DNA of 64,000 bases, from contig JAMXDE010000009.1 of NCBI GenBank assembly GCA_026770025.1, positions 1,649,001 through 1,713,000 of the forward strand, in the 5' to 3' direction. The position numbers and the translations under genes were made by a program. Source of the DNA: Craspedostauros australis (taxonomy: Eukaryota; Bacillariophyta; Bacillariophyceae; Mastogloiales; Achnanthaceae). The notes beneath the pieces are model-generated. The model saw nothing but the letters and a program-made list of their open reading frames with translations. It did not search any database and was not told the origin of the DNA. This document shows positions 2,725 through 17,762 of the stretch, one piece after another; position 1 is the first letter of the stretch; every line of letters begins with the position of its first letter.

Positions 2725-2728
2725 ATAA

Positions 2729-2767
2729 GAGCCCATTCAGTCACAAACCAACGAGTCGCGGGGGGAG
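2729..2767 (+). repeat. Left 39-bp terminal inverted repeat
   Basis: It starts GAGCCCATTCAGTCACAAAC and ends CGGGGGGAG. The identical sequence recurs at 2868-2906, and the exact reverse complement lies at 10349-10387 and 17720-17758. Matching to the right-hand repeats stops after 39 bases. Confidence 0.85.
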
Positions 2768-3006
2768 CAGTCTACATGCGTTTTCAGGTTATTGCAGAAT
2801 ATTATGCAACGTGTTGTGAAGTATATATAAAAAAATGTCCGAGGTGGATCATCATTATATTAGATAAGAGCCCATTCAGTCACAAACCAACGAGTCGCGG
2901 GGGGAGCAGTCTACATGCGTTTTCAGGTTATTGCAGAATATTATGCAGCGTATTGTGAAGTATATATAAAAAAATGTCCGAGGTGGATCATCATTATATT
3001 AGATAA
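2729..3006 (+). repeat. Two tandem 139-bp repeats
   Basis: Two nearly identical units of period 139 bp each carry the 39-bp inverted-repeat sequence. This is followed by an AT-rich segment with TATATAAAAAAATGTCCGAG and an end in ATTAG plus ATAA. They differ at only a few bases (for example CAACGTGTTG against CAGCGTATTG near 2806 and 2945). No coding potential is seen. Confidence 0.85.
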
Positions 3007-3026
3007 GTTATGGGCTGCTGTGAGTT

Positions 3027-3362
3027 TCAGGTAGACTCCTTGTATGCACGCACGAAGTGAAGACGAACGGATGGTGTCAGAACACGATTTCGTTGATGGG
3101 GCTTCGAATCAACGAGAAATACAGCATCACAGTTGCCAGCTGGTGGTTTCTGGTGGATTCCAAAGAGAGACGCTAGCGCTAAGTAGCGAGAAGCCTTGAA
3201 ACCTTTTTGTTGGTCTTCGAAGATGTCAAACAAGACAAGATTGATCTTTTTGGGGCAATGAGATAATATCAACGTTAAACATGAATCATCCTTTGTATGT
3301 GCCTCTGTCGTGCGTTCTCTGTTTGACTCGTGCTGGAAAATATTCGAATTATTTTGATCCAA
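3027..3362 (-). other. Open frame shared by both module copies
   Basis: This 111-codon frame has no in-frame ATG at its 5' end: the frame runs back to a TAG and the first candidate is TTG. An equivalent frame of the same length occurs in copy 2 at 10412-10747, differing at a handful of residues. It ends in a basic, HFVRAYKEST-type tail. I recognise no domain. It could be part of an element-encoded protein or chance. Confidence 0.25.
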
Positions 3363-4083
3363 TCGTTGTGTTTCCTACTGATCGACAGTTTGGGGGTTAC
3401 GCGTACAGACGGATGCTCTGCCATGTACATAGCACCAGAATGAATTGACGATCTTGTGGTTCCGTTTCTGTTCCCGTTCCTGTCTCACCACAAGTCGCGC
3501 CGAATTGGTTGCATCTGGCAGGCGTGCTTCATGACCGTCGCAACGAAGCATTAGGAGAGCGAGCCGAAATGTTTGGACTGAGAATCAAATGATGTTTGAT
3601 AGTGTCAACGACGAAATCAAGTGAACACTCATCTCATTTTGAATGTGAACCTGCATCATACACGTATCACGCATGTAGACATTATGTAGACAAGTTCTTT
3701 TGAGGACGAATTCTATTGTAGGACGTGACGCAAGCCGATATGTAAAATGAACACCCTTGCTCCAAAGTGATGATGAGCGGGAGGGTTCCACCATTTCCCT
3801 CCCCTAGCTTCCTCACTACCACCCAGAAGACTACAGTCACTTCAATGCTTCATCAATGCTCTACTTCTGAGGTTCGAAATGATGGTGTCATATATATATA
3901 CCTCACTGATAATAACTGTTAAGTTATGTGCTGGGGGGGGCACTTTGATTCTGCCTCGTTTATTCTCCATGTCTGCATGTAATGGGAACAGATGTGTCAG
4001 TATTATGATCGTGTTGGGAGAGAGGGCTGTGTCCATTTGGCAGGTCTGTTTGCTGGCGATGTTGTGGCGGCAGGGGAATCGTC

Positions 4084-4881
4084 TCAGGGTGCGATCCGCC
4101 TATAGTTCCATTTCCAGTTCACAAGCACTGCTGTGGCTAGTGACGCATTGCCTCCAAGGCCTTGGTGCATGGCTTGGGCCAACGGAATGAGCTGGGCGGT
4201 CTGCTCAGTGTGCGGATGATGCTCCCAAAGTGGGTGCAGGACTGCAGGGATGGTGGTTGGCAGGCATGTTTGCAGCATCTGAAAATATTGGAGCAGCACA
4301 GGCGTCGTGTCATCAGAAGTCTGGGACGCCTTGACCTTGGTCTGGTCCTGCCATTGCATCAGTGTCGTGTGCCACATGAGGTTGGTGACACTGTCCTGCC
4401 AATTGTGAAGTAGTCAAGGGCGCGCCTGCGATTGTGAGGTACCATGGGAGGTGCTTGCGCACTCCACTGCATCGCCCATCCGCCCTAAATCATGGCCATC
4501 CAGTCTACTTTGCTTTGCTGCAGCTGTATGGATTTGATGGGGCAGTTGCGAACGCCGGAGAGACAATGGTGTTAACATGGCTTGGATCCAACACCTGATG
4601 TCGAACAGTGTGGACAGGACTATCCACAAATGTCCAACACAACCATCAACCATGTTGTTGATCACAGCATCACTCTCCATCATCATTTCAGTCTGAGGAT
4701 GCATTGAACTGGAACGCCTGCCATGTATGTCCATGACACAGTTACTTCTACAGAAGGTCAAAACCTCAGAATCCTGGATGGAACCCATCAATCTCCGATC
4801 TTCGCGACAGTGGAAAGCTGGAATGTAACTGTTGGCCGATGGAGTGCCAATGAAGTACACAAACAAAGCATCACTGCACAT
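4084..4881 (-). other. Decayed retroelement-like coding remnant, copy 1
   Basis: Two minus-strand frames (4881-4414 and 4377-4084) have homologues in copy 2 (12075-11728 and 11583-11290), so they were present before duplication. The composition (many Gln, His, Leu and Trp) resembles the rest of the degraded retroelement sequence. I cannot place either in gag, integrase or reverse transcriptase with certainty. Interrupting stops show they are not functional as they stand. Confidence 0.3.
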
Positions 4882-4910
4882 ACAAAAAATATATGTAAAA
4901 TGTGCATGGG

Positions 4911-5700
4911 TGTTGGCAAGTTCCGCTCACGGTAACCTACGATCGTGGAAGATGGTGTTGGTTGATAGTCGTTCGTTTGCTATTTCATTAGTTGGCTACT
5001 CCGATCCTCTCGGTGTACGCCGTTCTCTTGCCCGATGCTCTCAGTGCTTCAATCTGTTTCGTAGATTCGGTCTCCGATTATGAGTCGGTACGCGAGATGC
5101 TCTCTCGCTCCTCTCTGTATTCTCTCTCTTAACATCGTGTGCTCGTCGCGCACGATACTCCATGTTCGATACGTATTCCATATTCGACACTCCGTTCATT
5201 CAGTACTGGCTCCTACTCCATGAGTACTCGCCATTTGAAGTTCACCTTCTGTATCCATGATGCTGATGCCCTTTGGTCATCGGATCTTCGCCTCCTGCTC
5301 TGACTCGGAGACAGATGTCGACGTGGTGACACGATGACATCCTGTCAACGTCAGTAGGCGTCCTTCTGCTCTCCAGATGTCACGTTCCATTGGTGATGTA
5401 GTAGTCTGTCAGATGATATCGTCATCTGAGGTTTAGTTGGGAAGTACCTCGAGATTCTCTTGGTACCATTGATGGATGGACGGACGATCTTCCAATTCTC
5501 TCAGAAATCGTTATTTGCAAATTTCCTCCAGAAATCTTGCCCCTTTTCGTGTGTTCCGTTTCCCCTGTAATTCTGACGAATCACAGTATACTATCGACAC
5601 GAATGTAGTTATACCGTCCAAGTGCGTATGAGAGAATAGCGGGTGAACGATGCACATATACACGTACATCTTGACATATACTCACATGTACATCTCGACA
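4911..5700. mobile_element. Solo-LTR-like insertion in copy 1
   Basis: A 790-bp segment begins TGTTGGCAAG and ends CTCGACA, the TG...CA ends expected of an LTR. CATGGG lies immediately before it (4905-4910) and again immediately after (5701-5706). In module copy 2 the same locus (about 12098-12112) has a single CATGGG followed by TGCTCCTCC, which is a clean empty site. No internal coding domain is present, so this is best read as a solo LTR. The 6-bp duplication is 5 bp if the LTR is taken to end in CAC. Confidence 0.8.
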
Positions 5701-5948
5701 CATGGGTGCTCCTCCAACCAAAGCAAGCTCATGTGTGGTACAAAGTAGCTATTCTGCATCCATTGTGATGAGTGCATGGTGTGAGAGCCTGTACAAAGCA
5801 GAGAACACAAGAGTTATGATTTTGGTGTGAGGTGGAGTAAAAGCGTGAAGTCTCTGTCCACACAGATGGACAATATCCAGACTGTGACACCCGCTACAAT
5901 TGATGGACTGGGACGACCAATCGATCCGAAAGTATGTAACTACTCTAA

Positions 5949-7484
5949 TCAGTTGCAGCCGCCGCTCCCTTCATGTTGCTGGCCACACAGGGACATCACT
6001 CCGGAGACGTGGTCCCAGTGCCTCATGAAGAGGGGCGGAGAGGTCTGCTTGGTAGACATGTCGGCAGTGATCAAAGCAGACAAGTTTCTGCGAACGCAAT
6101 GTGGTTGTTTTCCACCCACTGTTGAACAGCAAAATGTAGAATGGCGCCGTGGCGTGTGCGACGCGAGGGCTGCCGTGCGTTGGCCATCATGAGCGCAATT
6201 CAGTTGTTCTCGTACAGCACCGTACCACACCGCTGAAGTACACCAAGCTTGTCAAGGATGCAACAAATGCATAATGCCATGTGGCCAGCATCAGAAGCAC
6301 AGAGAGGTTCAGCCTCTGTGCTGGACATGGCGACCGTGATCTGCACTCTCGGTTTCCATGCGACGGCAGCAGCAGCGAGATGGAAAACGATGGACGACAC
6401 CGACTGTTGTTGCTGAGTATCCATGGCCCAATCACTGTCAGCATACCTTTAGAGGACATTGGGTTGTTCTGCTGGATGGCCAAATACATCATCATGCACT
6501 GGCGTTTGCTTGGCTGGAACAGGCATGGGCAGTAGTGCAGGGACAGCATCGGTGCAATGCAGCGCGATGCCTTGAGCGGGAGTGTGGAAGAGATATCGAG
6601 AAACCTGCTTGGCGACAGCGAAATGGTCTATGGCCAGCTTCGCCAAGAATTGCAAGAGTTTCACGATGGGAAAAGCGATGGCTGGCCTACAGGTGATCAT
6701 AGGACAGATGAGTTCGCCAATAGCCTCACAATAGCATTCAATGTCTGCCTGTACCTGCTTGAGGCCGCATGCATCCAAGGCTTCAGAATCATCCAGCTTG
6801 CGTATGTGCGCATTGCCATCATCCATTGGAGTGAGCGCACCATTCATCTTCTTCTGTTCATTCCATTTGAAAACCTTATTGAGTTGTGTGCTATTGTGGA
6901 TGGAGACATGTGTGGAAGTTTGGATCAGATCCGCACCAATGAAGTGTTGGAGAACGCTGAATCATTTCATGGGAATGAACAGGAACAAATCCAAGCTCAT
7001 CGCAGATCGTGGAGGAAGCCGCTACATCGCTGCATGCAATGGCAAAGTCATCAACCTGACATAGAAAGAGCATGTTGTGTTCTTTGTAAGCGCCGCAGTA
7101 TAGGCATAGAGCATGCATGATGGGCCTGAAACCCATGCGCTTCAGCTATGCATCAATGTGCACCGCCCACTGCCATAGTGCTCAGGAATGACCCTGAAGA
7201 TTCTTACTGATGAGAGTCATGCAGCCACACGGAATGGGTGCGCGTCCCTACGACTGCCACCATTCAGCAAAGGGGCTGTCAACATGCATGTAGTACTTCT
7301 GTGCACCACAAGAAGCCTCAGCAAATGCATTGTAAATGTCAGTGCCATAGATGGTCTTGTTCTCCATGGTTGTGGCAGCAATGAACAGCCAGAAATCCGT
7401 AGCAGCCAGAGTAGCTGTGAATGTGTGCCCTGTGATTGCTGCTTTGCCTGTTGGAATGTACATATGTGTATGTGCATCGCTCAC
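5949..7484 (-). pseudogene. Copia-like RT/RNase H remnant, copy 1
   Basis: Read on the minus strand, this region gives, in order, Copia-type landmarks in shifted frames. First is a DIYNAF reverse transcriptase motif (about 7320-7340). Next is CQVDDFAIAC, standing in for the usual LYVDD catalytic box (about 7050). Then come TRPDIAF- and RYL-like sequence as TCRPAIAFPIV and AKQVSRYLFHT (about 6600-6700), and the RNase H motif VAMSSTEAE (about 6330). The pol C terminus reads ITADMSTKQT (about 6060), which matches the family's 'aDmlTK' ending. Multiple stops and frameshifts make it inactive. Ty1/copia polyproteins make reverse transcriptase and integrase for retrotransposition. Confidence 0.7.
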
Positions 7485-8669
7485 CCATTGTTCTCTTATG
7501 CTCTACGCACAAGCGGCGCAAACATTTGCGTCATGAGTGATCTGTGATTGATCTGTGGTTGATCAAAATCACATCACAAAATCGGGCACACACAAAAATC
7601 AGAATTTCGGAAGGGCATTTGTGAACAATCATTTCTGAGAGCATCAGGAATGCAGTCTGTCCATCAACTGACAGAAATGCATGACATCGAGCAAGGATCG
7701 ATGTATTTCATAACTAAACCTCAAATGATGATATCCTCACCATACCACTGCATCATCGATGGAATATGGAATCTGAAGGATCATGGAAGACAACAGCTGA
7801 CATCAACAGGATGTCATCATGTCACCACATCAACATCTGTCTCCACATCAGATCAAGAAGGCGAAGATTCAATGACCAAGTGACATCAAGATTGTGGATA
7901 TGCAAGGAGGAGTTCAGATGAGACATTGGCAAATACTCACAGAGTAGTGCACCAGTAGATGACGAAATGATGGAGTATGTATTGAATACAGAGTATGTAT
8001 CTAACACTGATTATCGCGCAGTACCAACACACGAGAGAGAGAGAAAGAGCGAGAGAATACAAGAAATAGCAAGAGAGCATCTCACATGCCAACTCATAGT
8101 CGGACGATAGTTGAGAGACACCAAGAGTATTGGGAGACTCCAAGAGGCACCAGAACAACACAATGAAATAGCAAACGAAATAGTAACAACCACCACCACC
8201 ACCGTCAACAGTCGCAAGAGTATCCGTGAGCAGAACTTGCCAATATGCCACATTGCCCAGGGTCCACACCTCATGTTCGCGTTATCCATGAGATATGAAT
8301 GCCGCAGTCTGGATCGCCACTACGGAATGCGACAAGCACGATGTCCAGGGGTGATGTCGAAAACGTGTAGCTGCTCTTGGTCATTCATGCTGTTCCAGGT
8401 GATGTCAGCATGTGGATTGTTGCCAGATGACAACATGTCAATGTCAAACGCCGTATTGTTGGGATGGCTTGATATTTTGAGCATCATGACATGCCATGTG
8501 GACACACTGATGGCAACCCACTGCAGCCAATGCCGCAGAGTGCATGCGGGCACTCTCGTGCAGCATCAGCGGAAGCAGAATGACATCACTCATGTGGACG
8601 ATTGGCTTCTTGAGGTCCAACGGTGGCTGTGGATCAGGAGTTATCACAGTATCTGCTGCAAGACTGCCT

Positions 8670-9592
8670 GCAGCAAATACATTGCAAATGCATTGGACAA
8701 GTTGGAACAACAACAGGGATCAATACACAACCATCATGGTCCCACGCAGAACAAGAATCATCTGGAAACGGATGACTCCAAACTACTAACACCTGACTAA
8801 CAACACCAGTTCCAGCAGCTCATCAGGATGATGAACTGAGTTGTTCAACTTGGACGTTTTGATTTTGCATTTGCAACTTCTTCACTTTCACGTTTCACTG
8901 CATCATCTTGCAAATGACGCCTTGAGAGAGCCATCAAAGTATGGGGATATCTGGAGCACAAGTCCACATTGCAAACACAGATTGACTCTCGCCCGATGAT
9001 ATTTAACAACTTCAATGCAACACCATCCAATCCAGAAATGGCCTTGCAGATGAAGGAGGAATACCCAGAAGCATCAGAGGAAATCAACAACAGATCGCCA
9101 AAGCTGATCTACCGACAACTGCCAATGTATGCATTCATCAATGGCGATCATGCACACAATTGAGTCACATGAAGATCCAATGCTGGCATCATTCTATGCC
9201 TTGGAAGAACACCAGTATACTTCTCAAGCAAGAGGCAATCATCAGCGGCAACTTCAACATATGGCGCCGAATTCAATGTCATGGGATCCGTGGCAGAAGA
9301 GATCATTGTGCTACAATGTGCACTCCAATTGCTGAGGGTGCAAGTCAAGTGGCCAGTAATCGCATCATGTGACAACAATGCTGCGATCTCGAACACGACG
9401 ATCACAGAGAGCCTGCTACAAAAGAAGCATGCAGCGATATCATTTCGCAAAGTCCGCGAATCTGTGTGAGCCGGTATGCAAGTGCCAGTATATGATCCAC
9501 CAGCACAAAACTTTGCGGATATGCTCACAAAAGCACTGGCGAGACAAGCACTTGCCACTTTCGTCACTGCTCTGTTCTGTCGAAATGTGTGA
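8670..9592 (+). pseudogene. Copia-like pol C-terminus, copy 1
   Basis: On the plus strand, opposite to the neighbouring fragment, this region reads as the end of a second Copia pol. It shows QQLI followed by VVQLGRFDFAFATSSLSRF (end of RT), RPMIFNNFNATPSNPEMA, the RNase H-type STYGAEFNVMGSVAEE, CDNNAAIS, HAAISFRKVRE, and FADMLTKALARQALAT before a TGA at 9590-9592. Stops at several places (for example the TGA in TGCAAATGACGCC near 8916) and one frame change inactivate it. Copy 2 lacks that particular stop. Confidence 0.75.
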
Positions 9593-10348
9593 CATCAGTA
9601 ATTCCCGATTGTACGGGACTGAACCAAAATAGAGTACAGAAACAACAAATACCCCCCTACCGTTAACGTGGCAAGCGCATGATCGATCACTCCTGAGCGT
9701 TACAGGAGCACGTTACTTTTGGGACTACGGGGAATTTCGACACTGTTCGACGGGAGTCATCCTCAAGATGAAGGGGCATGCCAGCTTTCACTGTAAACTA
9801 TACCACTTACAAATCGAATTGGTGTGCGCTTGGGCACTTTGTTTGGCTGGTTTTCTGCGTTGGCGACTTTGCTTGTTGTGCAAAACTCCTCTGTCGGCCA
9901 CCATGATCACCCGACCGGACTGAAAAAACACCCGAAGCAAAAACGACTCTTTCGCACCGACAACAGTAAAAAGCGCAAAATATATGTCTGTCCGTCAACA
10001 CGGCCACCAGCAATCGCGAAGGTTCAGGCAGCGACGGCTCGGATGTGTGATAACAACAACCAGTACTAAATCTACGGGCGATGGTGATGGTTCTCGCCAA
10101 AACGAGCATGCCCGCTTGCACAACACAACTCCGCGACGTGCCGAACGAGAACAACAAAAACATGGCCCAAATTGGGTGGAAATGTTGGGTGGACCCTCAC
10201 CACGAAGTCTTGCTGCAACCCGGTTTTGTTGAACCGGCATTGACGGAAGATTGACGGTTCTCGTCAAAAAGTCGGACCGACGGAGCATTGCTACAACACG
10301 GCGCACTGCGAGAGCCTCGGAAGGACGGACCAACTGGCCAAAAAATGT
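9593..10348. other. Non-coding 3' part of module copy 1
   Basis: Between the pol fragment and the right inverted repeat lie about 750 bases without recognisable coding sequence. They may be LTR or untranslated sequence of the plus-strand element. The segment is about 99.5% identical to its counterpart at 16964-17719. Confidence 0.5.
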
Positions 10349-10387
10349 CTCCCCCCGCGACTCGTTGGTTTGTGACTGAATGGGCTC
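10349..10387 (-). repeat. 39-bp inverted repeat closing copy 1
   Basis: This is the exact reverse complement of 2729-2767. It is followed by ATAA (10388-10391) and then directly by the start of copy 2, GTTACGGGCTGCTGTGGG. Confidence 0.85.
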
Positions 10388-10411
10388 ATAAGTTACGGGC
10401 TGCTGTGGGTT

Positions 10412-10747
10412 TCAGGTAGACTCCTTGTAGGCACGCACGAAGTGAAGACGAACGGATGGTGTCAGAACACGATTTCGTTGATGGGGCTTCGGATCGACGA
10501 GAAATACAGCATCACAGTTGCCAGCTGGTGGTTTCTGGTGGATTCCGAAGAGAGAGGCTAGCGCTAAGTAGCGAGAAGCCTTGAAACCTTTTTGTTGGTC
10601 TTCGAAGATGTCAAACAAGACAAGATTGATCTTTTTGGGGAAACAAGAGAATATCAACGTTAAACATGAATCATCCTTTGCATGTGCTTTTTTCGTGCGT
10701 TCTCTGTTTGACTCGTGCTGGAAAATATTCGAATTATTTTGATCCAA
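10412..10747 (-). other. Open frame shared by both module copies (copy 2)
   Basis: This is the counterpart of 3027-3362, same length and without an in-frame ATG start. The few residue changes include Thr to Lys and Ser to Pro. No domain is recognised. Confidence 0.25.
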
Positions 10748-11289
10748 TCGTTGTGTTTCCTACTGATCGACAGTTTGGGGGTTACGCGTACAGACGGATG
10801 CTCTGCCATGTACATAGCACCAGAATGAATTGACGATCTTGTGGTTCCGTTCCCGTTCCCGTTCCTGTCTCACCAAAAGACGCGCCGAATTGGTTGCATC
10901 TGGCAGGCGTGCTTCATGACCGTCGCAACGAAACGTCAGGAGAGCGAGACGAAATGATTGGACCGAGAATCAAATGATGATGTTTGATAGTGTCAACGAC
11001 GAAATCAAGTGAACAATCATCTCATTTTGAATGTGAACCTGCATCATACACATATCACGCATGTAGACATTATGTAGACAAGTTCTTTTGAGGACGAACT
11101 CTATTGTAGGATGTGACGCAAGCCAATATGTAAACTGAACACCCTTGCTTCAAAGTGATGATGAGCAGGAGGGTTCCACCATTTCCCTCCCCCAGCTTCC
11201 TCACTACCACCCAGAAGACTACAGTCACTTCAATGCTTCATCAATGCTCTACTTCTGAGGTTTGAAATGATGGTGTCAGGGGAATTGTC

Positions 11290-12075
11290 TCAGGGTGCAA
11301 TCCGCCTATAGTTCCATTTCCAGTTCACAAGCACTGCCGTGGCTGGTGATGCATTGCCTCCAAGGCCTTGGTGCATGGCTTGGACCCACAGAATGAACTG
11401 GGCGGTCTGCTCAGTGTACGGATGATGCTCCCAAAGTGAGTGCAGGACTGCAGGGATGGTGGTTGGCAGGCATGTTTGGAGCATCTGAAAATATTGGAGC
11501 AGCACGGACGTTGTGTCATCGGAAGTCTGGGACGCCTTGATCTTGGTCTGGTCCTGCCATTGCATCAGTGTCGTGTGCCACATGAGGTTGGTGACACTGT
11601 CCTGCCAATTGTGAAGTAGTCAAGGGCGCGCCTCCGATTGTGAGGTGCTTGCGCACTCCACTGCATTGCCCATCCGCCCTAAATCATGGCCACCCAGCCT
11701 ACTTTGCTTTGCTGCAGCTGTATGGATTTAGTGGGGGAGTCGCGAACGCCGGAGAGACGATGGTGTCAACATGGCTTGGATCCAACACCTGATGTTGAAC
11801 AGTGTGGACAGGACTATCCACAAATGTCCAACACAACCATCAACCATGTTGTTGATCACAGCATCACTCTCCATCATCATCTCAGTCTGACGATGCATTG
11901 AACTGGAACGCCTGCCATGTATGTCCATGACACAGTTACTTCTACAGAAGGTCAAAACCTCAGAATCCTGGATGGAACCCATCACTCTCCAATCTTCGCG
12001 ACAATGGAAAGCTGGAATGCAACTGCTGGCTGATGGAGTGCCAATGAAGTACACAAACAAAGCATCACTGCACAT
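11290..12075 (-). other. Decayed retroelement-like coding remnant, copy 2
   Basis: This is the counterpart of 4084-4881, with the same two frames and the same order. The gap between them is a few bases shorter because copy 2 lacks a GTACCATGGGAG-type segment. No domain is assigned with confidence. Confidence 0.3.
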
Positions 12076-13330
12076 ACAAAAAATATATGTAAAATGTGCA
12101 TGGGTGCTCCTCCAACCAAAGCAAGCTCATGTGTGGTACAAAGTAGCTATTCTGCATCCATTGTGATGAGTGCATGGTGTGAGAGCCTGTACAAAGCAGA
12201 GAACACAAGAATTTTGATTTTGGTGTGAGGTGGAGTAAAAGCGTGAAGTCTCTGTCCACACAGATGGACAATATCCAGACTGTGACACCCGCTACAATTG
12301 ATGGACTGGGACGACCAAACGATCCGAAAGTATGTAACTACTCTAATCAGTTGCAGCTGCCGCTTGCTTCATGTTGCTGGCCACACAGGGACATCACTCT
12401 GGAGACGTGGTCCCAGTGCCTCGTGAAGAGGGGCGGAGAGGTCTGCTTGGTAGACATGTCGGCAGCGATCAAAGCAGACAAGTTTCTGCGAACGCAATGT
12501 GGTCGTTTTCCACCCACTGTTGAACAGCAAAATGTAGAATGGCGCCGTGGCGTGTGCAACGCGAGGGCTGCCGTGCGTTGGCCATCATGAGCGCAATTCA
12601 GTTGTTCTCGTACAGCACTGCACCACACTGCTGAAGTACACCAAGCTTGCCAAGGACGCAACAATTGCATAATGCCATGCGACCAGCATCGGAAGCACAG
12701 AGAAGTTCATCCTCTGTGCTGGACATGGCGACCATGATCTGCACTCTTGGTTTCCATGCAACAGCAGCAGCAGCGAGATGGAAAACAATGGACAACACTG
12801 ACTGTTGTTGCTGAGTGTCCATGGCCCAATCACTGTCAGCATACCTTTAGAGGACATTGGGTTGTTCTGCTGGATGGCCAAATACATCATCATGTGCTGG
12901 CATTTGCTTGGCTGGAACAGGCATAGGCGGTAGTGCAGGGACAGCGTTGGTGCAATGCAGCACGATGCCTTGAGCAGGAGTGCGGAAGAGATATCGAGAA
13001 ACCTGCTTGGCGACAGCAAAATGATCTATGGCCAGCCTCGCCAAGAATTGCAAGAGTTTCACGATGGGAAAAGCGATGGCTGGCCTACAGGTGATCATGG
13101 GACAGATGAGTTTGCCAATAGCCTCACAATAACATTCAATGTCTGCCTGTGCCTGCTTGAGACCACATGTATCCAACGCTTCAGAATCGTCCAGCTTGCG
13201 TATGTGCGCATTGCCATCATCCATTGGAGTGAGCCCACCATTCATCTTCTTCTGCTCATTCCATTTGAAAACCTTGTTGAGATGTGTACTATTGTGGATG
13301 AAGACATTTGTGGTGGTTTGGATCAGATCT

Positions 13331-13535
13331 TGAAAGAGCACTATCGAAAAATCACGAGGGGAGAGCAAAAGCAAAGTACCATGCCGGAATTCGAACCCAG
13401 AACCTCAGTGAAAATTACTGGTGCTCTGCCGTTGAGCTACAGGCGTTGCGATTGCTGATCCGAACACAAGTGAAATTTATAGATAGTGGGGGCTACAGGA
13501 GTAACGTAATTTGCACTATACGTATTTGTGCTGAT
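13331..13535 (-). mobile_element. 205-bp insertion carrying tRNA-like pol III boxes
   Basis: This segment is absent from copy 1, where GGATCAGATCCGCACC is continuous at about 6924-6939. It is flanked by AGATCT on the left (13325-13330) and AGATCT on the right (13536-13541), a target duplication of 5-6 bp. It starts TGAAAGAG and ends GCTGAT. It contains the tRNA-like stretch described separately. It could be a tRNA-derived SINE or another small non-autonomous element. The short duplication is more like integrase-mediated insertion than target-primed insertion. Confidence 0.65.
13379..13450 (-). other. tRNA-like sequence (A box and B box)
   Basis: On the minus strand the segment reads TAGCTCAACGGCAGAGC (D arm with A box) and, about 30 bases later, CTGGGTTCGAATTCCGG (T arm with B box). 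A weak CAGT/ACTG anticodon stem lies between them. The seven bases expected on each side for the acceptor stem do not pair, and no clean anticodon loop forms. It is therefore a tRNA-derived promoter rather than a working tRNA gene. Confidence 0.6.
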
Positions 13536-13749
13536 AGATCTGCACCAATGAAGTGTTGGAGAACGCTGAATCATTTCATGGGAATGGACAGGAACGAATC
13601 CAAGCTCATCGCAGATCGTGGAGCAAGCCGCTACATTGCTGCATGCAATGGCAAAGTCACCAACCTGACATGGAAAGAGCATGTTGTGTTCTTTGTAAGC
13701 ACCGCGGTATAGGCATAGAGCATGTGTGGTGGGCCTGAAACCCATGCAC

Positions 13750-14453
13750 TGATAATCAGCAATTCAATACAGGACAGGGCACCAAACACTGCACTTACTA
13801 CGCCGCCAGGGTGATCAAGCCGTCAGGTGGAGTCGGTGTGTTTGGTGATTGTTGTTGTTGCTAATAGTTGTATTCAATTGATGATTGAGTTTGGATTATG
13901 AGATGATGATCTCCTATTTCTAATGATGGTGCCTATTACACGGTTGCTAACGTGCTGCTCGATTACCTCGTGGTTTCTCTCGCAGTCTTTCCTAAAACAT
14001 TGCCCAAGATGGCATGTTGATTTACACGATATCCCGTGTTATTCTCGCCCTTGGGTCTTTCTTCCTCTCTCCTGGTCTTGCCTAATCTTGATATCTGTTT
14101 GATCATATATGGATTGATCCGTCTACGTCGACGAGGTGCATGCATCACCTCTGACGATGTTGTTCTGGATCCTAAATGTTGTTGCCACGTGCTCGATGAT
14201 GCCCTTGGCTTTGCTAGACAGGTCAGCATACCATGACTAAGATATAATCTCGATTCCGAGGATCACAATGACCGATCCTCTGACGTCATACGATGATGTC
14301 AGTGCCTACGTCAGGTTCGATGACTGTAGTGACTGAATCTCAATCGTGTATCAAGACTCACTCGACTATACTCTCAAATCGAGTCGAATCAAAAATAGTG
14401 AATCACATTTCAGTCATGGGAGATGGGTACCTAATTTCGATCTAGATGTTGAT
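13750..14453. mobile_element. 704-bp insertion in copy 2
   Basis: Module copy 1 reads ATGCGCTTCAGC without interruption at about 7134-7145. Copy 2 has ATGCAC (13744-13749), then a 704-bp segment starting TGATAATCAG and ending GATGTTGAT, then ATGCGC (14454-14459) and the resumed homology. This is an insertion with a 5-6 bp target duplication, one copy of which has since mutated. It has no coding domain. The left end begins TG but the right end is not CA, so LTR identity is unproven. Confidence 0.7.
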
Positions 14454-14855
14454 ATGCGCTGCAGCTGTGCATTGATGTGCACTGCCCACTGCCATAGTGC
14501 TCAGGAATGACCTTGAGGATTCTTGCTGATGAGAGTCATGCAGCTGCACGGAATGGGTGCGCGTCCCCACGACTGCCACCAGTCAGCAAAGGGGCTGTCA
14601 ACATGCATGTAGTACTTCTGTGCACCACAAGAAGCCTCAGCAAATGCATTGTAAATGTCAGCGCCATAGATAGTCTTGTTCTCCATGGTTGTGACAGCAA
14701 AGAACAGCCAGAAATCCGTAGCAGCCAGAGTAGCTGTGAATGTGTGCCCTGTGATTGTTGCCTTGCCTGTTGGAATGTACATATGTGTATGTGCATCGCT
14801 CACCCATTGTTCTTGTATGATCTATGCACAAGCAGTGCAAACATTTGTGTCATGA

Positions 14856-14927
14856 GTGATCTGTGATTGATCTGTGAGCGATCTGTGAGTGATCTGTGAT
14901 TGATCTGTGAATGATCTGTGGTTGATC
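14856..14927 (+). repeat. 12-bp minisatellite, copy 2
   Basis: About six units of the pattern TGATCTGTGATT stand in tandem with small variations. The homologous place in copy 1 (about 7533-7563) has only two to three units, so the array expanded or contracted after the duplication. Confidence 0.75.
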
Positions 14928-16041
14928 GAAATCACATCACAAAATCGGCACACACAAAAAATCAGAATTTTGGAAGGATATTTGTAAACACTCATTTCTG
15001 AGAGCATCAGGAATGCAGTTTGTTCATCAACTGACAGAAATGCATGACATCGAGCAAGGATCGATGTATTTCACAACTTAACCTCAAATGACGATATCCT
15101 CGCCATACCACTGCATCATCAATGGAATATGGAATCTGAAGGATCATGGAAGACGACAGCTGACATCAACAGGATGTCATCATGTCACCACATTAACACC
15201 TGTCTCCACATCAGATCAAGAAGGCGAAGATTCAATGACCAAGTGACATCAAGATTGTGGATATGCAAGGAGGAGTTCAGATGAGACATTGGCGAATACT
15301 CACAGAGTAGTGCACCAGTAGACGATGAAATGATGGAGTATGTATCAAATACAGAGAATGTATCTATCACTGATTATCACACAGTACCAACACACAAGAG
15401 AGAAAGAGCGAGAGAATACAAGAAATAGCAAGAGAGCATCTCACATGCCAACTCATAGTTGGACGATAGTTGAGAGACACCAAGAGTATTGGGAGACTCC
15501 AAGAGGCATCGGAACAATGCAAAGAAATAGCAAGAAAAATAGTATCAACCACCACCACCACCACCACCACCACCGTCAACAGTCGCAAGAGTATCCGTGA
15601 GCAGAACTTGCCAATATGCCACATTGCCCAGGGTCCACACCTCATGTTCGCTGCTATCCATGAGATATGAATGCCACAGTCTGGATTGCCACTACAGAAT
15701 GCAACGAGCACAATGTCCAGGGGCGATGTCGAAAACATGTAGCTGCTCTTGGTTGTTCATGCTGTTCCAGGTGATGTCAGCAGGTGGATGGTTGCCAGAT
15801 GACAACATGTCGATGTCAAACGCCGTATTGTTGGGATGGTTTGATATTTTGAGCATCATGACATGCCATGTGGACACACTGACGGCGACCCACTGCAGCC
15901 AATGCCACAGGGTGCATGCTGGCACTCTCGTGCAGCGTCAGCGGAAGCAAAATGACATCATTCATGTGGCCGATTGGCTTCTTGAGGTCCAACAGTGGCT
16001 GTGGATCAGGCGTTATCACAGTATCTGCTGCAAGCCTGCCT

Positions 16042-16963
16042 GCAGCAAATACATTGCAAATGCATTGGACAAGTTGGAACGACAACAGGGATCAATACAC
16101 AACCAACATGGTCTCACGCAGAACAAGAATCATCTGGAAACGGATGACTCCAAACTACTAACACCTGACTAACAACACCAGTTCCAGCAGCTCATCGGGA
16201 TGATGAACCGAGTTGTTCAACTTGGACGTTTTGATTTTGCATTTGCAACTTCTTCACTTTCACGTTTCGCTGCATCATCTCGCAAAGGACGCCTTGAGAG
16301 AGCCATCAAAGTATGGGGATATCTGGAGCACAAGTCCACATTGCAAACACAGATTGGCTCTTGCCCGATGATATTTGACAACTTCAATGCAACACCATCC
16401 AATCCAGAAATGGCCTCGCAGATGAAGGAGGAATACCGGAAGCATCAGAGGAAATCAACAACAGATTGCCAAAGCTGATCTACCTACAACTGCTAATGTA
16501 TGCATTCGTCAATGGCGATCATGCACACAATTGAGTCACATGAAGATCCAATGCTGGCATCATTCTATGCCTTGGAAGAACACCAGTATACTTCTCAAGC
16601 AAGAGGCAATCATCAGCGGCAACTTCAACATATGGCGCCGAATTCAATGTCATGGGATCCGTGGCAGAAGAGATCATTGTGCTACAATGTGCACTCCAAT
16701 TGCTGAGGGTGCAAGTCAAGTGGCCAGTAATCGCATCATGTGACAACAATGCTGCGATCTCGAACACGACGATCACAGAGAGCCTGCTACAAAAGAAGCA
16801 TGCAGCGATATCATTTCGCAAAGTCCGCGAATCTGTGTGAGCCGGTATGCAAGTGCCAGTATATGATCCACCAGCACAAAACTTTGCGGATATGCTCACA
16901 AAAGCACTGGCGAGACAAGCACTTGCCACTTTCGTCACTGCTCTGTTCTGTCGAAATGTGTGA
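16042..16963 (+). pseudogene. Copia-like pol C-terminus, copy 2
   Basis: This is the plus-strand counterpart of 8670-9592, with the same end-of-RT and RNase H landmarks. It reads through SSLSRFAASSRKGRLERA, where copy 1 has a stop. It has its own frameshift near 16432, where the frame leaves the conserved EEYPEAS reading. The last 460 bases are essentially identical to copy 1. Confidence 0.75.
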
Positions 16964-17719
16964 CATCAGTAATTCCCGATTGTACGGGACTGAACCAAAA
17001 TAGAGTACAGAAACAACAAATACCCCCCTACCGTTAACGTGGCAAGCGCATGATCGATCACTCCTGAGCGTTACAGGAGCACGTTACTTTTGGGACTACG
17101 GGGAATTTCGACACTGTTCGACGGGAGTCATCCTCAAGATGAAGGGGCATGCCAGCTTTCACTGTAAACTATACCACTTACAAATCGAATTGGTGTGCGC
17201 TTGGGCACTTTGTTTGGCTGGTTTTCTGCGTTGGCGACTTTGCTTGTTGTGCAAAACTCCTCTGTCGGCCACCATGATCACCCGACCGGACTGAAAAAAC
17301 ACCCGAAGCAAAAACGACTCTTTCGCACCGACAACAGTAAAAAGCGCAAAATATATGTCTGTCCGTCAACACGGCCACCAGCAATCGCGAAGGTTCAGGC
17401 AGCGACGGCTCGGATGTGTGATAACAACAACCAGTACTAAATCTACGGGCGATGGTGATGGTTCTCGCCAAAACGAGCATGCCCGCTTGCACAACACAAC
17501 TCCGCGACGTGCCGGACGAGAACAACGAAAACATGGCCCAAATTGGGTGGAAATGTTGGGTGGACCCTCAACACGAAGTCTTGCTGCAACCCGTTTTTGT
17601 TGAACCGGCATTGACGGAAGATTGACGGTTCTCGTCAAAAAGTCGGACCGACGGAGCATTGCTACAACACGGCGCACTGCGAGAGCCTCGGAAGGACGGA
17701 CCAACTGGCTAAAAAATGT
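16964..17719. other. Non-coding 3' part of module copy 2
   Basis: This is the counterpart of 9593-10348, differing at about half a dozen positions near 17514-17590 and 17710. No coding sequence is seen. Confidence 0.5.
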
Positions 17720-17758
17720 CTCCCCCCGCGACTCGTTGGTTTGTGACTGAATGGGCTC
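17720..17758 (-). repeat. Right 39-bp terminal inverted repeat
   Basis: This is the exact reverse complement of 2729-2767. It is followed by ATAA (17759-17762) and then unique sequence TATGTTGTATGG. Confidence 0.85.
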
Positions 17759-17762
17759 ATAA

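Follow-up and report, generated by a model that had tools for sequence, protein, structure and literature searches.

A self-nested pair of apparently non-autonomous DNA transposons with Copia remnants in Craspedostauros australis, and a candidate partner protein

What kind of mobile element ends like a cut-and-paste DNA transposon while its interior is filled with retrotransposon debris is the question raised by a 15-kb block in the genome of Craspedostauros australis (assembly GCA_026770025.1), situated in a 64,000-nucleotide stretch of contig JAMXDE010000009.1 (positions 1,649,001 to 1,713,000 of the forward strand; hereafter the window, in which features are numbered). The block, with exact boundaries at 2725-17762 including the flanking duplications, very probably represents a large non-autonomous cut-and-paste DNA transposon in two copies, of which one sits inside the other, with a candidate partner element elsewhere in the genome. 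The ends and their duplications, the nesting, the ends shared with a sister element and the Copia remnants common to the copies are directly observed. An initial annotation made from the sequence alone had proposed a non-autonomous element with terminal inverted repeats and acquired retroelement sequence, which is supported by a multi-copy family and by a relative carrying a candidate transposase; its further proposal, a tandem expansion of modules, gives way to a nested insertion.

The outer element, B, opens with an exact 39-bp terminal inverted repeat at 2729-2767 (plus strand) and closes with an equally exact one at 17720-17758 (minus strand), next to ATAA target-site duplications at 2725-2728 and 17759-17762. 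Its initial 139 bp (2729-2867, plus strand) extend as far as the insertion point of the inner element, A, and the rest of B continues at 10392-17758 (plus strand). A is complete at 2868-10387 (plus strand), has exact 39-bp inverted repeats at 2868-2906 (plus strand) and 10349-10387 (minus strand), and is likewise bordered by ATAA at 2864-2867 and 10388-10391, so that the block reads as the leading 139 bp of B, the entire A, ATAA and the remaining B. The window holds four copies of the 39-bp sequence, which starts with GAGCCCATTC, all exact, two forward and two reverse. The inverted outer ends adjoining ATAA and the ATAA at the internal module junctions, both described in the initial annotation, are thereby borne out.

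The block is one locus of a family. A search of the 74.8-Mb genome with the 39-bp pattern, allowing up to three mismatches, finds 49 matches (24 forward and 25 reverse), 43 of them exact, and the same pattern read backwards as a control finds none genome-wide; the number of ends is far beyond chance. Thirty-eight of the ends make up 19 pairs, with the inner and outer pairs of the window counted. In all 19 the repeats face each other and the 4-bp flanks are identical, and the duplication length is therefore constant; the duplicated sequences are ATAA (8 pairs), TTAA and ATAT (3 each), TTAT and TTAG (2 each) and AGAA (1). A distribution in which the 39-bp sequence is only ever the end of a long terminal repeat (LTR) in direct orientation is accordingly not seen. 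Five single-unit copies (L009-L013) of 6.45-6.62 kb define the family core. In an alignment of 11 copies the terminal repeats, which begin with GAG and are 39 bp long, have no variable position among their 78 columns, and the two 100-column stretches adjoining them have five variable columns each, while 28 of the 32 core blocks (up to 200 columns each) vary in 10-20% of their columns, and the ends thus appear to be under constraint. The aligned copies had been chosen for exact ends, which biases them towards invariant repeats; this is offset by the genome search, in which 43 of 49 matches are exact although three mismatches were permitted. Three side observations concern the same copies. The elements on C67 (L024) and C69 (L018) have right flanks that are nearly identical across the 25 bases compared, which suggests a duplicated or alternative-haplotype segment, and two ends on C3 (L065 and L066) also have flanks in common. 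Among the two-state columns of the alignment there are 669 transitions and 186 transversions, a strong bias for which methylation may be responsible.

How the two modules came to lie together is evident from the site of the inner junction. Among the fetched loci, 21 distinct left ends contain the exact inner part of the repeat, and 20 of them run uninterrupted through the ATTAGATAAGTTA site, read with one mismatch permitted; the sole interrupted left end is that of B, which is broken by A. The 20 paralogous left ends represent the empty version of the nested site and carry a single ATAA, and empty sites lacking the single ATAA are not seen here. The two inner ATAA sequences are the 4-bp target-site duplication produced by a single nested insertion, and it is the insertion of one copy into the other that makes the modules meet at ATAA. 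The initial annotation had instead read the repeated ATAA as a tandem expansion at the same short sequence, which also sits poorly with the family at large, where ATAA is duplicated in no more than 8 of the 19 pairs. A doubling of one element head-to-tail, through unequal exchange or slippage at ATAA, would agree with the two same-orientation modules, with the ATAA at every junction and with the existence of one tract free of differences between A and B. However, the left 139 bp are found twice at the left end and are missing between the modules, as nesting predicts. In addition, A and B each have a copy elsewhere that resembles them more closely than they resemble each other: over 6,327 gap-free core columns of the 11 copies, A differs from B by 4.1%, while A and L020 differ by 2.9% and B and L009 by 3.5%. 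A also contains a 796-bp insert that has no counterpart in B, and B contains inserts of 211 and 710 bp that have none in A. Given this pattern of divergence and the unshared inserts, a simple tandem duplication is disfavoured and would be very unlikely to account for the block.

The tract without differences spans about 780 bp in two successive blocks of core columns (9279-10059 in A, equivalent to 16650-17430 in B), whereas the other full blocks show 1.0-7.7% difference between A and B, apart from the last 27 columns, which lie in the inverted repeat and also have none. Inside the tract is a 171-bp insert (9572-9742 and 16943-17113) that is present in A and B only of the 11 copies, and the identity of the tract is likely the result of gene conversion between the nested elements. 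Related sequence occurs in L023, which has a 169-bp match of 97% to the 171-bp insert. No inverted repeats of at least 12 bp are present in the 796-bp, 710-bp and 171-bp insert regions.

The interior of both elements is marked by broken Copia sequence, as seen with a profile built from four resident Copia pol stretches. In A, a remnant of reverse transcriptase (RT) and ribonuclease H (RNase H) with a broken frame lies at 6095-7409 on the minus strand (winA 3228-3875, E 3.7e-18, and 4156-4542, E 0.0018) and includes a tblastn match at 6239-6859, and a second RNase H remnant, which contains stops, lies at 9116-9544 on the plus strand (winA 6249-6677, E 1.8e-12). B has an RNase H remnant at 12493-12852 on the minus strand (winB 2241-2600, E 4.5e-14) and a remnant of the RT thumb and RNase H at 16143-16915 on the plus strand (winB 5891-6103 and 6238-6663), of which the RT thumb match is weak (E 0.023). 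The presence of Copia RT/RNase H remnants on both strands, first reported in the initial annotation, is thus confirmed. RNase H remnants, one per strand, are found in all 11 aligned copies, which indicates that the Copia sequence was captured before the family was amplified, and every copy has weaker RT stretches (E < 0.1) beside at least one of its RNase H remnants. In the plus-strand RNase H, three stops are common to all 11 copies, L018 having one extra, and no copy has an unbroken minus-strand frame. The variable columns at the first, second and third codon positions number 19, 15 and 22 (of 142 each) in the plus-strand RNase H, 10, 3 and 5 (of 75 each) in the plus-strand RT, and 57, 68 and 79 (of 433 each) on the minus strand; the third-position excess typical of a selected gene is absent in all three stretches, although the minus strand leans slightly that way. 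Because of the common stops and broken frames and the lack of a clear third-position excess, the remnants had most likely already become pseudogenes by the time the family spread.

Younger Copia insertions can be distinguished from these old remnants. The 796-bp insert of A (4905-5700, apparently on the minus strand) is found at that site in A only among the 11 aligned copies and has CATGGGTG on both flanks, and related sequence sits directly upstream of Copia gag frames in L023 and L027; it is probably a solo Copia LTR left by a younger insertion. The element on C4 (L022) likewise holds a long Copia frame that represents a younger insertion. The probable solo LTR and the remnants on both strands would also be expected if the block were merely a pile of Copia insertions and the 39-bp sequences parts of Copia LTRs, but such a composite has next to no probability in view of the inverted orientation and 4-bp duplications of all 19 pairs, of the recurrence of both RNase H remnants in 11 of 11 copies, and of an element described below, L014, which has the same ends while the same Copia-profile run finds nothing in it under E 0.1, and whose own frame has no significant Pfam match. 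The block as a whole was also considered as a Ty1/Copia LTR retrotransposon and rejected, as its outer repeats are inverted and its pol fragments are broken and lie on opposite strands.

If the family is a non-autonomous DNA transposon, the protein that moves it would be expected elsewhere, and a candidate is found in L014 (C2:3166406-3174727), an 8,322-bp sister element with the same 39-bp ends and TTAG duplications. It matches the family core at 86% identity over its left 624 bp and at 91% over its right 497 bp; apart from one 74-bp match, no other similarity between the two is found at E <= 1e-3. L014 has an uninterrupted frame of 1,238 codons (P0001), in which the first methionine is residue 60; it also has, at L014:1248-3241, a 77-bp minisatellite in a tandem array of 25.5 units. 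The search for an autonomous member of the family thus leads to a candidate transposase gene between shared ends, and the candidate protein has no match in the window (tblastn, E <= 1e-3), in agreement with the initial view that the interior of the block lacks a transposase. Close copies of the protein are found on C49 (98-99% identical, two pieces), C4 (94-98%, two pieces, with stops), C29 (97%, partial, one stop) and C28 (79%, with stops). On C2, C4 and C49 the elements are bounded by paired 39-bp ends whose 4-bp duplications match, and on C29 a single 39-bp end is present.

More distant relatives of the protein, 25-40% identical, occur at some 30 further loci by our own grouping of 68 matches, and this number is a lower bound, as 37 of 399 candidates were scored. 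The open frames listed at these loci are 1,014-1,687 amino acids long although a few of the matches contain a stop; the lengths recur, which suggests several recently active families. For L069 (C18) one comparison gave no match at E <= 1 and another gave E 0.78. One fetched distant relative, L071 (C57), is 35% identical to P0001 over residues 661-1019, and conserved between the two are the motifs D-x-KQKILP, SDNAxCFAS and YTEAQTGKxxIDTHF. The aspartates D749, D833 and D878 of P0001, picked by eye and separated by 83 and 44 residues, are retained in L071 and may be read as a DDD-like triad with a putative catalytic role. Relatives were not found in viral contigs, prokaryote genomes, plasmids and phages, collections that are not made for eukaryote genomes, and their absence there says little about other algae. 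A bolder proposal would make the 1,238-residue protein the founding member of a DDD transposase superfamily, or of a deeply diverged branch of such transposases, which has undergone expansion in this alga (five loci with close copies, counting that on C2, and at least about 30 distant ones) and whose non-autonomous members formed around retrotransposon pol fragments that they had swallowed; we consider this rather doubtful. It is also conceivable that a different transposase, for example a distant relative, moves the elements and that the C2 element shares its ends through recombination alone, and the presence of distant relatives at some 30 loci would suit this view; however, the paired 39-bp ends and matching duplications of three elements with close copies of the protein speak against it, and this explanation appears improbable.

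In the reading of the block as a self-nested pair of non-autonomous transposons, a plausible course of events can be proposed. Two broken 3′ fragments of Copia pol, on opposite strands, would have come to lie in the middle of an element before the family spread, and this middle probably took the place of a transposase gene, as some 600 bp at the left and 500 bp at the right are common to elements carrying the 1,238-codon frame while the middle differs. Copies would then have moved in trans, their conserved ends being acted on by the DDD-type protein that the C2:3166406-3174727 element, or one of its kin, encodes. Copy A entered copy B at an ATAA within B, 136-139 bp from its left end, the target being duplicated so that it now stands on both sides of A, and gene conversion may afterwards have copied a tract between the two.

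Several points weigh against this reading. Eleven of the 49 ends are not among the pairs, and an empty version of the outer site was sought in this assembly and not found. Searches of Pfam, NCBIfam, PHROGs and PDB sequences give no significant match for the candidate transposase, its putative catalytic role is drawn from motifs common to two aligned sequences, and two single-sequence structure predictions, with mean predicted local distance difference test (pLDDT) scores of 39.6 and 34.9, are unusable. L014 and L027, compared across 631 N-terminal codons, show 21 non-synonymous and 10 synonymous codon changes (about 0.6 per site), which may be regarded as weak evidence of selection. The comparison of ends covers the elements with close copies of the protein, and mobility as such is read from sequence.

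Among known systems, the family resembles several in part. PiggyBac and its kin are specific for TTAA, and the family shares with them a 4-bp duplication that is at times TTAA, but this sequence accounts for only 3 of 19 pairs and the 1,238-residue protein has no piggyBac match in Pfam (E <= 1). Pack-MULEs are non-autonomous DNA transposons with captured sequence, and the likeness to them lies in ends common with a coding element, foreign and broken coding sequence inside, and many copies. In contrast, Mutator elements have duplications of 7-12 bp (PMC10741241), while those here are 4 bp, and the cargo here is Copia sequence. The same source describes the Sola superfamily as having 4-bp duplications and DDD transposases (PMC10741241), and a study of slime moulds reports AT-rich 4-bp duplications for their Sola2 elements (PMC3627910). 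Terminal repeats of 11-1124 bp are given for Sola, a range that includes the 39 bp found here. The family is similar to Sola2 in its AT-rich duplications, ATAT among them, in its long elements and in the DDD-like protein, and differs in that the Sola2-type repeats of slime moulds, as given there, are 12-21 bp long (PMC3627910). Sola2-type chimeric elements with differing interiors are also mentioned in these sources, the chimeras carrying Fanzor proteins (PMC10741241, PMC3627910). Compared by description, the 4-bp AT-rich duplications fit Sola2, and the family is a possible member of that group. The three D motifs of P0001 may resemble Sola-type motifs as well. No description of this family was found in the literature, as judged by titles and abstract openings and with subscription literature mostly uncovered.

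As for the surroundings, the window gives no Rfam matches and no genes by ARAGORN (bacterial code). Of ten open pieces searched against Pfam, nine of them in the window and the tenth P0005 of L012, four give hits, all under the curated cut-offs. Other parts of the window contain frames with matches to Arv1, chitinase class I, PSME4, a root UVB sensitive-type protein, DUF3754 and lipase class 3. Genome-wide there are 61 matches to chlorophyll-binding proteins and 88 to the silicon transporter profile PF03842, 32 of which span at least 480 of the 513 profile positions and 28 of these are free of stops; the latter family looks very large for a 75-Mb genome. Together the two sets of matches point to a photosynthetic alga that forms silica, most likely a diatom.

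Overall, the family appears to work like known cut-and-paste elements, and in this the finding is mostly ordinary, the partner protein being moderately interesting. What looked like an odd 15-kb block now belongs to a defined family, one whose ends are exact, which shows a target preference and which has both a non-autonomous form and a candidate autonomous partner; the nested copy provides a natural empty-site test together with an apparent gene-conversion tract between nested copies. The candidate transposase family may be new to profile libraries, and since a large family has no significant match in those searched, annotation relying on those libraries would miss it.

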